NCBI GenBank assembly: GCA_020850325.1
Contig: JADZEW010000008.1
Coordinates: 62,001 to 126,000, forward strand
DNA length: 64,000 bases
Direction: 5' to 3'
Source: Methanoregulaceae archaeon
Lineage (GTDB): Bacteria; Armatimonadota; Fimbriimonadia; Fimbriimonadales; Fimbriimonadaceae
Shown here: positions 59,741 through 64,000 of the stretch, in pieces
Layout of the letters: each line of letters begins with the position of its first letter
Position numbering within the stretch: the first letter of the stretch is position 1
Notes under the pieces: model-generated
What the model was told of the DNA's origin: nothing
Database searches by the model: none
Seen by the model: the letters and a program-made list of their open reading frames with translations, nothing else
Translations under genes and position numbers: made by a program

Positions 59741-61679
59741 TCGCAAGCGAATCAAGCTCCTCACCGGCGTCAGCTCGTTTATGTTCGTCGCGGCTGGCGT
59801 TAGCCAAGCGCGCGTCCACATCTTTGATCGTGACGAGATCATCGATCGAGCCACTAAGACCGACCGGTTCGTTGTCTCCCGCACCGAGTTCGCGAAGCGA
59901 GGCTCTGTGCTCGATCGCGAGGGTCGCGCGCTTGCTCAGGATGAGGACACTCGCTACCTGACGGTGATGTTCGATAAGGTGCCCCGAAGCGCCGCATTCT
60001 ACATGGACTTGGCTGCGGCAACCGGCATTCCGGCCACCGAGTTCGCCACACTCGCCGAGACGGCAAGGGCTCCCGTGGACTGGCGCAAGCCGATCAGCCC
60101 CACCCAGGCTTCGCTCGTGCAAGATGTCAAGACCCGCTGGCGGGCCGACGGTGTTGGATTGTCGCGGTCAGGACGGCGCAGCTACCCCCTTGGCGAGGCG
60201 TCGGCTTCTCTCGTAGGCTACATGCGCGACAAGGCGCCGCAGGCGGGAATCGAACTGGGCCTCAACTCACACTTGTCCGGCACGAACGGCAAGATCGTGG
60301 GCATTGTCGATCGCGAAGGGAACTACCTGCCCATGCGCCTCGATCGCCAGACGGTACGTCGCAAAGACGGCAAGAACCTCACGTTGACGATCGACGCAGA
60401 GTTGCAGCAGTCGGCCACTGAGGCCGTCAAGCATGCGGTGGACCTGCACAAGGCTGACCAAGGCGTCGCGATCGTCATGGATCCAAGGACCGGTGACATC
60501 CTCGCGATGGCGAGTTGGCCGAGCTTTGATCCGAACCGGCCCATCGAACCCGCTAAAGGCCAAAAGCGCACGCCCGAGTTCAACTCGGCTTACATGTCGG
60601 CGCTGGAGCCCGGGTCGACGTTCAAGATCTTGTCGCTGGCGAAGGCCCTCGATGAAGGCGTCGTCCAGCCCAACGAAGACTACTACTGTCGCGGCACGAT
60701 GACGGTGGGCAAAACGACGATCGCATGCGACCGAGAACATGGCTCGCACGGACTCATCGATCCCCAAATGGCCATCGCCCGTAGCTGCAATCTCGCCGCC
60801 GCCACGTGGGCGATGCGCGTAGGCCAAGACGACTTCTATAAGTTCATGCGTCAAACCGGCCTCTTCGAGAAACCGGGCTTGGGGCTACCTCGAGAGAGCA
60901 TCGGCCTTTACAACGAAAAGGAGTACGCCAAACAACTTCAGTTGGCCAGCAACGGCTTTGGGCAGTCGCTGAATGCGACCCCACTTGCGCTATGTGCAGC
61001 GTTCGCATCGCTCGCTAACGAGGGCAAGCGCGTCCATCCACGCCTCGTGGCGAAGATCGGCGAAATGCCCACCCCGGTGACTCCGGGCAGCCAAGTGGTG
61101 AGTCCTGAAGCGGCGCAGACTGTCCTGCACATGATGCGCTCGGTTCTGGAGTCGGATCGTGGTACAGGCAAATCGCTCCGAATCCCCGGCTACGCTATCG
61201 GTGGCAAGACGGGAACGGCGCAGAAGAAGAACTTTGATACGGGTTCGATGAAGGGCGGGGGCTATGTGTCGAACTTCATCGGCTTTGTACCCGCTGAGAA
61301 GCCAGAGGCGGTTGTTCTCGTCATGGTCGATAACCCCAAGGGCGGATCGTATTACGGCTCGACGGTGGCCGGCCCCGCGTTCCGATCGATCGCCCAGTCG
61401 GTGATTCGGCGCCTCAGGATTCCGCCGACGGTCGCCATTTCTGATCCTGCGCCTGCGCCGCGGTCGGCGGAGAAGCCGAAACCGGTCGTCAAGCCTGCGA
61501 TTGCGCCCACGGCTAAGGCAAAGCCCAAGCCCAAGGCACCCGCCGTCACGGTCAAGGCAAAGCCCGTCGCTAAGTCGCTTGCGAAGCCGGCAAAGCGCGT
61601 TGTGCAAGGGCCTCCGGCACCGGCGGCTAAGAAGCGTACGACGCCAAAGGACGACAAGCAGGTAAACCGAAACCGCTGA
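59724..61679 (+). CDS. ftsI: Septal peptidoglycan transpeptidase (PBP2B/FtsI)
   Basis: 651 residues. An N-terminal membrane helix and a PBP dimerisation domain (RGSVLDREGRALAQDE) precede the transpeptidase with Ser298 in EPGSTFKIL (SxxK), SCN for SxN, and GGKTGTAQ for KTG. The C-terminal 90 residues are a Lys/Pro/Ala-rich disordered tail (KPKPVVKPAIAPTAKAKPKP), unusual for FtsI. GTG start overlaps ftsL by 17 bases. It cross-links septal peptidoglycan. Confidence 0.95.
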   Translation: MSHSADRKRIKLLTGVSSFMFVAAGVSQARVHIFDRDEIIDRATKTDRFVVSRTEFAKRGSVLDREGRALAQDEDTRYLTVMFDKVPRSAAFYMDLAAATGIPATEFATLAETARAPVDWRKPISPTQASLVQDVKTRWRADGVGLSRSGRRSYPLGEASASLVGYMRDKAPQAGIELGLNSHLSGTNGKIVGIVDREGNYLPMRLDRQTVRRKDGKNLTLTIDAELQQSATEAVKHAVDLHKADQGVAIVMDPRTGDILAMASWPSFDPNRPIEPAKGQKRTPEFNSAYMSALEPGSTFKILSLAKALDEGVVQPNEDYYCRGTMTVGKTTIACDREHGSHGLIDPQMAIARSCNLAAATWAMRVGQDDFYKFMRQTGLFEKPGLGLPRESIGLYNEKEYAKQLQLASNGFGQSLNATPLALCAAFASLANEGKRVHPRLVAKIGEMPTPVTPGSQVVSPEAAQTVLHMMRSVLESDRGTGKSLRIPGYAIGGKTGTAQKKNFDTGSMKGGGYVSNFIGFVPAEKPEAVVLVMVDNPKGGSYYGSTVAGPAFRSIAQSVIRRLRIPPTVAISDPAPAPRSAEKPKPVVKPAIAPTAKAKPKPKAPAVTVKAKPVAKSLAKPAKRVVQGPPAPAAKKRTTPKDDKQVNRNR

Positions 61680-63364
61680 TGCGGTTGAGCGAGGTGTTCC
61701 AGCAGGCGGGCGTCATCCCGGATCGTCTTGAGGGTGATACCGAGATCTCCACGTGGGTCATGGACTCGCGGGCGGTGTCCGCTGGCGACTGTTTTGTTTG
61801 CATGCCTTCGGAGAACACCGACTCCCACCAGTATCTAGAGGCCGCCCGCGATCGCGGGGCGGTCGCGGCGGTAGTGCACTCCGAGGAGGGCTTTGCCCGG
61901 GCGCGGTCGCTTGGCTTGGCGACTGCACTAATTGTTCCTACCACCTCCGGCGATCCGTCGATGGATGAGACCACGGAACAGCGCATCCGGCGCAAAACCG
62001 GCCGCTTTTCGGACGCGATGTGGCGACTGGCCAAAGTGGCGTGCGGCGATCCCTCGTCGAAGCTGATCGTGTTCGGAGTAACGGGCACGAACGGCAAGAC
62101 GACGACGGCGTGGCTGATCCGCGACATGATGAACTTGCTCGGTGTGCCCTGTGCGTACATCGGCACGTTGGGGTTCGGAGCCCCCTCCTTTCCAACGGAG
62201 AGGAGGGGGTTGGGGGTGGAGAGTTCCGAAGAACTCCGTCCCCTCGCGAACACCACGCCCTTCGCCATTGAACTCAACGCGATGCTCGCCGAGGCCGTCG
62301 AGCGCGGCTGCAAGGCCGTGGCGATGGAAGTGTCGTCGCACGCCCTTGCGGAGCAACGCTGTGACGGCGTCGAGTTCGATGTCGTGGTTTTCACGAATCT
62401 GAGTCAAGACCACTTGGACTACCACGGAACGATGGACGCCTACCTCGCCGCGAAAGGGCGGCTGTTCGGTCTGAGAGCCCCCTCCTTTCCTTCGGAGAGG
62501 AGAGGGTTGGGGGTGGAGAGCGCTCGTGCCGTCATCAACGTTGGCGATTCGACAGGCGCCAACCTCGCGGCAACGCTCGGATCAGGGGCTGTCCGGTTCT
62601 TGCAGGTCCCCAAACTCAGTCCCTTCGGCGATGTCGACCCGCGAACCGATATCGAGGGGTGCGCCTTCGAGGTCGGCCTCACCCGGATTCACCTCGTGCT
62701 TCAGTCCCGAGACGACGGCGACCACGGGTTCTTTGCTGATCTCGGCGGAGGCTACAACATCCAGAATCTGATCGCGGCGGTCAGCGCGGTGAAGGCAGCC
62801 GGCTACCCGATGTTCGAGATCACTCAGGCGATAACGACGCTCCTTCGCCCCGTGCCCGGGCGCTTCGAGCCCGTGCCGAACGATTCGGGCATCGGCATCA
62901 TCGTGGACTACGCCCATACGCCCGACGCGCTCGACAAGCTCTTGGAAACCGCACGACCCTTGACGAAGGGCAGGATTATCACGGTCTTCGGCTGCGGCGG
63001 AAATCGAGATAAGTCCAAGCGACCGCTGATGGCGCAGGCGGCTGAGCGGGGAAGCGACGTGGTGGTGATCACGAGCGACAATCCGCGAACCGAAGATCCG
63101 GATGCGATCATCGCGGAGGTGGTGGCTGGACTAACCAGGGCCCCTCACCCCCCAGCTTCCTCTCCCCGACATTCATCGGGCAGAGGGGGAGTTTTTGTCG
63201 AGCCCGACCGCCCGCGAGCGGTGGCGCTCGCCATCAAACTCGCCGAGCCTGGCGACTGCGTGATTATTGCGGGCAAGGGGCACGAGAACTACCAGATCAT
63301 CGGGCGCACGAAGCACCCGATGGATGACCGCGAACTGGCTCGCGAGGGGCTGAGGCAGCGATGA
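61679..63364 (+). CDS. murE: UDP-MurNAc-tripeptide ligase MurE with in-frame palindromic insertions
   Basis: 561 residues, about 60 longer than usual. VTGTNGKTTTAW is the ATP loop. The DNPR motif in TSDNPRTEDP indicates meso-diaminopimelate as substrate. IVDYAHTPDALDKLLE and FGCGGNRDKSKRPLMA are also normal. Three extra segments are encoded by palindromic elements: APSFPTERRGLGVES, APSFPSERRGLGVES and APHPPASSPRHSSGRGG. All three keep the frame. The start ATG overlaps the ftsI stop. Confidence 0.95.
   Translation: MRLSEVFQQAGVIPDRLEGDTEISTWVMDSRAVSAGDCFVCMPSENTDSHQYLEAARDRGAVAAVVHSEEGFARARSLGLATALIVPTTSGDPSMDETTEQRIRRKTGRFSDAMWRLAKVACGDPSSKLIVFGVTGTNGKTTTAWLIRDMMNLLGVPCAYIGTLGFGAPSFPTERRGLGVESSEELRPLANTTPFAIELNAMLAEAVERGCKAVAMEVSSHALAEQRCDGVEFDVVVFTNLSQDHLDYHGTMDAYLAAKGRLFGLRAPSFPSERRGLGVESARAVINVGDSTGANLAATLGSGAVRFLQVPKLSPFGDVDPRTDIEGCAFEVGLTRIHLVLQSRDDGDHGFFADLGGGYNIQNLIAAVSAVKAAGYPMFEITQAITTLLRPVPGRFEPVPNDSGIGIIVDYAHTPDALDKLLETARPLTKGRIITVFGCGGNRDKSKRPLMAQAAERGSDVVVITSDNPRTEDPDAIIAEVVAGLTRAPHPPASSPRHSSGRGGVFVEPDRPRAVALAIKLAEPGDCVIIAGKGHENYQIIGRTKHPMDDRELAREGLRQR
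62178..62223 (+). repeat. Palindromic element copy A in murE
   Basis: 46 bases. Arms CCCCCTCCTTTCC (62181-62193) and GGAGAGGAGGGGG (62197-62209) match at 12 of 13 positions with a 3-base loop, then a GTTGGGGGTGGAGAG tail. It encodes APSFPTERRGLGVES in frame. 43 of 46 bases match copy B. Confidence 0.9.
62475..62520 (+). repeat. Palindromic element copy B in murE
   Basis: 46 bases, differing from copy A at 3 positions. Arms at 62478-62490 and 62494-62506. It encodes APSFPSERRGLGVES, the same peptide in the same frame at a second place 297 bases on. Confidence 0.9.
63140..63191 (-). repeat. Palindromic element copy C in murE
   Basis: About 52 bases in the opposite orientation. Starts GCCCCTCACCCCCCAGC; arms at 63159-63169 and 63176-63186 match at 10 of 11. 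It encodes APHPPASSPRHSSGRGG in frame near the C-terminal domain. Confidence 0.85.
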
Positions 63365-64000
63365 GCATTCCCTTGAGCGTATTGGCGGAGCGGTTGGGCG
63401 GAGTGCTAAGCCTTCATCAATCTGCAATCTCTGATTGGCCCCTCACCCCCCAGCCCCCTCTCCCCCAAGGAGGAGAGGGGGAGCCGGAGGTCACCGGGTT
63501 CGCTACCGACTCGCGCGACGTTAAGCCTGGGGACCTCTTCATCGCGATTCGCGGGGCCAACGTCGACGGCCACGAGTTCGTTAAGACTGCTTTCGAACGG
63601 GGAGCCGTTGCCGCACTCGTCGAGCGACCCGACGAAGGGCCTCACATCCTCGTCGAAAACGTCGTGGATGCCCTCGCCCGCATGGCGCTCAGCTTTCGTG
63701 AGGAGTTCGACGGGCCGGTCATCGGTATCACGGGTAGCGCGGGGAAGAGCTCGGCCAAGGAGTTTGTTGCCGCCGCACTGTCGCCCCTCGGAAGGGTCAT
63801 GAAGACCGAGGGCAACCGCAACACGGAGTACACCGCACCGCTCATGTGGGCAGAGCTCCCCCTCTCCGCGAGTGGTTCGTCTCGAGGGGAGGGGGCTGGG
63901 GGGTGGGGAGATCCCGCCGCCGTCGTCGTCGAAATGGGGATGCGTGGCCCCGGCCAAATCGCGCACCTCGCGTCATTCTCCAAGCCGACCATTGCCCTCA
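63361..64000 (+). CDS. murF: UDP-MurNAc-pentapeptide synthetase MurF, 3' end outside window
   Basis: 213 codons to the right edge. The N-terminal domain ends with TGFATDSRDVKPGDLFIAIR. The ATP loop is GITGSAGKSSAKEF and AVVVEMGMRGPGQIAHL follows. It should add D-Ala-D-Ala to the tripeptide. Two palindromic elements are in frame (WPLTPQPPLPQGGEGEP and PLSASGSSRGEGAGGWGD). The start ATGA overlaps murE by 4 bases. The C-terminal half is not in the window. Confidence 0.93.
   Translation, partial: MSIPLSVLAERLGGVLSLHQSAISDWPLTPQPPLPQGGEGEPEVTGFATDSRDVKPGDLFIAIRGANVDGHEFVKTAFERGAVAALVERPDEGPHILVENVVDALARMALSFREEFDGPVIGITGSAGKSSAKEFVAAALSPLGRVMKTEGNRNTEYTAPLMWAELPLSASGSSRGEGAGGWGDPAAVVVEMGMRGPGQIAHLASFSKPTIAL
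63436..63482 (-). repeat. Palindromic element copy D in murF
   Basis: 47 bases. Perfect arms CCCCCTCTCC (63452-63461) and GGAGAGGGGG (63470-63479) with an 8-base loop, led by CCCCTCACCCCCCAG. It encodes PLTPQPPLPQGGEGE in frame, between the first helix of MurF and TGFATDSR. Orientation as copy C. Confidence 0.9.
63856..63910 (+). repeat. Palindromic element copy E in murF
   Basis: 55 bases. Arms at 63858-63867 and 63886-63895 match at 9 of 10; tail GGGGGCTGGGGGGTGGGGAG resembles copies A and B. In frame, encoding LPLSASGSSRGEGAGGWGD just before the EMGM motif. Confidence 0.85.

Follow-up and report, generated by a model that had tools for sequence, protein, structure and literature searches.

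Among described dispersed repeats, the closest in architecture are the BoxC/PIT/TM elements of E. coli (TM_ECO), class II intrastrand triplex motifs of 37 nt that occur in 23 copies, always intergenic and with no association with mobile elements (PMC4666352). The E. coli motif folds in vitro, and in vivo footprinting did not show folding (Holder et al.; PMC4666352). In literature outside subscription journals, searches on triplex-forming repeats gave no account of BoxC/TM elements within coding frames, and a search on Armatimonadota returned no paper on repeats of the kind described here. The closest system in behaviour is a protein-coding palindrome, the RPE of Rickettsia.

We analysed a window of 64,000 nucleotides (positions 62001–126000 of contig C8, in a genome of 3.52 Mb and 41 contigs) in which five palindromic segments had been proposed to lie in frame within murE and murF. 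The best explanation, to which we give a probability of roughly 0.8, is that a dispersed C/G-rich repeat of the BoxC/PIT/TM class gave rise to all five segments, its copies being tolerated in frame in protein loops.

Five copies in murE and murF

All five segments were found within the two genes at the places proposed, and both reading frames are intact. The murE ORF (61679..63364, plus strand, 561 aa in the ORF list) was identified by TIGR01085 (murE, 430 bits) and by Pfam Mur ligase domains, and carries copies A, B and C. Among named sequences, the best relatives of this MurE are from Armatimonadetes/Fimbriimonadaceae, which makes Fimbriimonadaceae the most likely family of the host. The N-terminal part of murF (63361..64000, plus strand; TIGR01143 murF, 309.6 bits), whose frame continues beyond the end of the window, carries copies D and E. 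Copy A (62178..62223, plus orientation, with the G-rich strand as the plus strand) encodes APSFPTERRGLGVES at MurE residues 168–182 and was matched in the triplex scan with n = 13, one Hoogsteen mismatch and no Watson–Crick mismatch. Copy B (62475..62520, plus), also recovered by the triplex scan, encodes APSFPSERRGLGVES at residues 267–281 and differs from A at 3 of 46 bases, which agrees with the 43/46 identity originally reported. Copy C (63141..63191, minus, with the C-rich strand as the plus strand) is partly degenerate, with two mismatches to the T1 pattern described below, and was also recovered by the triplex scan; it gives APHPPASSPRHSSGRGGV at residues 488–505. Copy D (63439..63483, minus) encodes PLTPQPPLPQGGEGE in the N-domain of MurF and was found with both the T1 pattern and the triplex scan, and copy E (63856..63910, plus) encodes LPLSASGSSRGEGAGGWGD in the middle domain and was found with the triplex scan. 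Two further murF copies lie outside the window, at C8:126094 (degenerate) and C8:126565, giving seven copies in the two genes together. AT-rich AATCTGAAATCTG-like stretches adjoin several copies and are likewise in frame (window 63410–63437, and ORFs of L232 and L231), giving peptides such as QTSDLRFQIDD and NLKSEINNPKL; these stretches may be a second dispersed repeat.

A scan of the full motif across the 64 kb returned exactly these five copies, and the statement that the window holds no other clear copy therefore stands; four Markov-shuffled windows gave 0, 0, 1 and 0 matches. The distance from the GTNGKT to the AGKGHE motif of MurE was 395 residues in the genome that contains the window and 413 in a congener (G001), compared with 342–360 in the other relatives, 33 without inserts. 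The excess length of MurE noted in the original prediction is accounted for by its three inserts of 15–17 residues. An AlphaFold model of MurE built with 41 sequences (pTM 0.90, mean pLDDT 88) has the fold of E. coli MurE 1E8C (TM-score 0.77/0.87). Its three lowest 10-residue blocks, with pLDDT of 53, 57 and 60, are residues 171–180 (A), 271–280 (B) and 491–500 (C); the inserts thus coincide with three low-confidence loops that lie, as anticipated, between conserved blocks, in the vicinity of the TTP motif (192) and the AKxxLF segment (258) and beyond the DNPR motif (467).

Architecture and subfamilies of the repeat

Each copy consists of a pyrimidine arm (Y), a loop, a purine arm (R), a short spacer and a third block that mirrors R, and the three-block scan searched for this arrangement with a spacer of 1–5 nt. 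Four subfamilies were observed directly. On its G-rich strand, T1 reads CCCCCTCTCC-loop-GGAGAGGGGG-CTG-GGGGGTGAGGGG; the R arm and third block are GGGGAGGGGG and GGGGGTGGGG in TE, GAGAGGAGGGGG and GGGGGTGGAGAG in T2, and GAGAGGGAGGG and GGGAGGGAGAG in T3. Copies A and B belong to T2, C and D to T1 and E to TE, and the murF copies at C8:126094 and C8:126565 to T2 and TE, so the assumption of a single element behind the five copies did not hold. A simple palindrome is rejected because the third, mirror block is conserved as well.

In all four subfamilies, reversing the R arm gives the third block of the same subfamily, with A faced by T or A. Where the R arm departs from Y by G–T wobble, as in TE, T2 and T3, the third block tracks R. 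Mirror matching between the third block and R extended to 97–99% of positions, compared with 87–91% for strict Watson–Crick pairing of Y with R; the former figure is partly circular because the scan used for the catalogue demands the mirror, a circularity from which the matches to the reversed T2 pattern and the copies of the original prediction are free. Shuffling between copies lowered the mirror match from 0.95 to 0.75. The blocks Y, R and R' are consecutive and R' is the mirror of R, the arrangement of class II purine motifs, and because the third purine block mirrors the purine arm, one strand could form an intrastrand purine triplex. Judged from sequence, the repeat appears to be a motif of the BoxC/PIT/TM class rather than a simple palindrome, and it is probably the DNA structure that is maintained.

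The family is dispersed through the genome. With up to three mismatches allowed, the T1 pattern found 22 strict T1/TE copies genome-wide and its reversed control found none; the T2 pattern gave 21 genome matches forwards and 20 when reversed, because T2 reads the same in mirror image. Searching the genome with a degenerate pattern added only three matches against a noisy control, and a covariance model built from 25 copies was used instead. The model gave 130 genome matches at E ≤ 1, both strands counted. Stretches fetched around matches and filtered by the mirror-seeking scan yielded a catalogue of 85 copies of about 40–60 nt, assigned to T1, TE, T2 or T3 or left unassigned; about 80 copies lie beyond the window, coding copies among them. 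Strict matches were present in 16 of 61 genomes compared. The congener has 11 strict copies and 73 model matches at E ≤ 0.05, and the repeat is also present in other families of the order Fimbriimonadales.

Copies inside genes and empty sites in relatives

Nine recognised conserved genes together contain at least 20 copies, with coding frames judged by length and codon-position G+C and then by Pfam and NCBIfam: three in MurE, four in MurF, five in a rhamnosidase-like protein, two each in MtaB and Cas4, and one each in an AraD-like aldolase, arginyl-tRNA synthetase (ArgRS), class II ribonucleotide reductase (NrdJ) and ApbE. The copy in NrdJ (L236:11409-15182) is near the C-terminus; elsewhere in this protein, residues 285–348 weakly match the YebC N-terminal domain (30.9 bits, cut-off 36). 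Intragenic copies use both orientations and several frames. The mean number of open frames per element was 4.1–5.7 of six, depending on subfamily, compared with 4.4 for random 48-mers of the window and 4.7 for shuffled elements, and frame openness is therefore largely a matter of base composition. When 20 insertions were placed at random on 3000 equal genes, four or more fell in one gene in 0 of 20,000 trials, whereas the observed number was five. Their open frames and conserved flanks suggest that the inserts are translated, and some could have been co-opted.

Alignment of MurE and MurF with relatives showed that, among the genomes compared, the inserts are confined to the window's genome and its congener, and provided direct observation of empty sites. 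MurE inserts A, B and C were found in these two genomes only. In MurF, copy D and the copy at C8:126094 were found in the window's genome only, the sites being empty in the congener and in other genera, and copy E and the copy at C8:126565 are common to both species and absent from other genera. Copy E occupies the same site in the congener, with the same subfamily and orientation. Other shared sites mostly agree in subfamily and orientation, and often in the loop, and the MurE sites are exceptions: site A holds T2 in the window's genome and T1 in the congener, site B holds T2 versus TE plus a second copy, and site C holds a T1-like versus a TE-type copy. These differences reflect either repeated insertion or exchange of elements; orientation is identical between the two genomes at all three MurE sites, which is compatible with exchange.

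Two further observations concern murE in this pair of species. The segment just after insert B (window 62521–62760) is 31% identical between them, with flanks at about 83%, and other pairs with flanks above 80% keep at least 70% there (z about −2.9, in one case); this single instance fits the reported instability around TM motifs. The murE of the congener also contains, in its N-terminal part (L162, about 1771–1797), an eroded TE-type copy with 24 of 27 bases alike and a score of 21 compared with a maximum of 18 in 300 shuffles. The window segment that corresponds to it has lost its resemblance to the element, which suggests that old inserts decay into ordinary codons.

An independent case came from G059, a genome from a different family of the same order, with 115 model matches at E ≤ 1e-4. 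Among the best 30 of these 115, 19 are in coding frames that extend for at least 60 codons to either side; genes with copies include those for MutL, PurK, MnmG, an Mfd-like helicase, a PurL-like AIRS protein, LpxK and MurE. Its MurE has inserts at two places, both different from those in the window. At the second, the insert is missing from four congeners; a fifth carries a degenerate TM-like copy and a sixth an unrelated long palindrome. That different repeats occupy the same MurE loop in different species suggests that the protein tolerates inserts there, not that they form a useful module, and the recurrence of insertion into the same loops argues likewise for sites that reflect protein tolerance. 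In the MurE of G055 (L341), the loop that holds the G059 insert pair carries a different long palindrome in frame, CCCCCTCCTGCAGGTTCCCCC ... GGGGGAACCTGCAGGAGGGGG, possibly another protein-coding repeat family. In G059 a three-block repeat (residues about 473–493 of L326, ORF 1–2412) apparently lies within a MutS intein, with Intein_splicing at residues 254–561 and LAGLIDADG at 380–432.

Spread of the copies and comparison with known systems

On the explanation we favour, hairpin and third purine block could fold a single strand into an intrastrand purine triplex, copies insert all over the chromosome, and those landing in frame in a surface loop persist. Such copies survive because the element keeps most frames open and encodes a flexible Pro/Gly/Arg/Ser loop. 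Copying might proceed by template switching, in the course of aberrant replication or repair at the structure, or be carried out by an enzyme; we infer that template switching at a single-strand structure while the DNA is replicated offers the most economical account. A broader proposal, that this is a transposase-free, structure-driven repeat copied through its own capacity to form a single-strand triplex at replication forks, and that in Fimbriimonadales such a motif has thereby supplied essential enzymes with new loops again and again, is rather unlikely to be correct.

The enzymatic alternative, that these are REP/RPE-type elements moved by a RAYT (Y1_Tnp, HUH) transposase as are GTAG or CGTC REPs, is improbable. 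The genome has eight Y1_Tnp matches, seven above the family cut-off, and short palindromes within ORFs are documented for REPs (PMC3733652). However, a three-block copy was found in only one of the eight Y1_Tnp neighbourhoods, and several Y1_Tnp genes are flanked by different inverted repeats. The Y1_Tnp (RAYT-like) genes lie at L191–L198, with their own inverted repeats, for example CCCTGAGGCTGCGGGTTGCAT around L196. GTAG/CTAC occurred at the ends of 4 of the 85 copies (6.9 expected) and CGTC/GACG at the ends of 1 of 85 (19 expected), so neither end tag rose above background, and examination of the Y1_Tnp genes and their neighbourhoods linked no transposase to the repeat. Flanking direct repeats averaged 0.62 nt compared with 0.84 nt in shuffled controls and reached 5 nt or more in 2 of 85 copies, giving no sign of target-site duplication. 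As these searches revealed neither a mobilising enzyme nor target duplications or end tags, insertion is demonstrated only by presence and absence among genomes.

Clustering of copies, and the close identity of A and B, could instead indicate local duplication or gene conversion within the mur cluster, an origin we consider quite improbable for the five (or seven) copies. A neighbour within 1 kb was found for 45 of 85 copies, compared with 4 expected, a figure inflated by fetching around matches, although the unbiased list of 22 T1/TE copies still shows tight groups. All seven mur copies nevertheless match best elsewhere in a family that is genome-wide, and the original view of an element spreading locally was not sustained. 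The similarity between A and B (0.91) is lower than that of A to C34:32680 (0.96) or of B to copies on C27 and C23 (0.94); for D, E and the distal murF copies, matches to far copies are no weaker than local ones, one of the seven being nearly tied between distant and local matches (0.80 versus 0.79); and three subfamilies are mixed within 2.4 kb. Since the mur copies are closer to copies elsewhere than to one another, they look drawn from a genome-wide pool.

It is very improbable that the segments are hairpins domesticated to regulate murE and murF by slowing their transcription or translation. Their C/G hairpins are strong, and the congener retains E as well as the distal TE copy of murF, but D and the copy at C8:126094 are absent there, the same elements occur in unrelated genes, and E. 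coli PIT elements reportedly showed neither promoter nor terminator activity (PMC4666352). That the segments are ancestral or functional protein loops, C/G-rich by chance, is scarcely credible despite intact frames and several sites common to the two species, given their absence from every other family member compared, the similar peptides in unrelated proteins in several frames and both orientations, and the other subfamilies at sites A and B in the congener.

Copies of a dispersed triplex-type repeat tolerated in protein loops would mean that essential enzymes absorb repeated foreign loops, and that a Pro/Gly/Arg-rich segment of an annotated protein, LTPQPPLPxGE for example, may be a DNA repeat and not a domain. 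Gene-fixed copies with empty sites in relatives also make the spread of BoxC/TM elements directly testable.

Among known systems, MITEs are likewise short, non-autonomous, dispersed inverted repeats, but the present repeat showed no target-site duplication and was traced to no parent insertion sequence. GTAG/CGTC REPs and REPINs with RAYTs (PMC3733652) share short hairpins, singletons and inverted pairs, and some location within ORFs, but the ends of the present copies have no GTAG/CGTC tag and RAYT association was not found. Rickettsia RPE are short palindromic repeats found in frame in unrelated genes, including essential ones, and also between genes. The RPE-like behaviour first proposed for the mur copies is borne out by in-frame palindromic inserts in essential enzymes, by homologues of the same proteins without these residues and by loop positions; the organism differs, a mirror third block is present here, and the likeness is one of behaviour, with no claim of membership in the RPE family. 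With BoxC/PIT/TM, the repeat shares C/G-rich composition and dispersal, the order of Y arm, R arm, short spacer and purine third strand, a closely similar GAGAGGG...GGGTGAGGG signature (derivable from a control oligonucleotide printed in PMC4666352), more than one type, inverted pairs and high copy number with no associated transposase (85 copies; no Y1_Tnp association). It differs in length (about 40–60 nt), in copy number (about 85), in its four subfamilies and longer variable loops, and in location, 20 or more of its copies being in frame in conserved genes where TM_ECO is intergenic. Intergenic location is a property of the E. coli copies and not of the structural class, and we therefore claim the same class of motif, a relation resting on the text of PMC4666352 and on architecture, and not a TM_ECO. 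Taken at the level of sequence, these appear to be BoxC/TM-type triplex repeats living, like RPE, in the reading frames of essential genes, which joins two separate curiosities, protein-coding palindromes and triplex-forming intergenic repeats.
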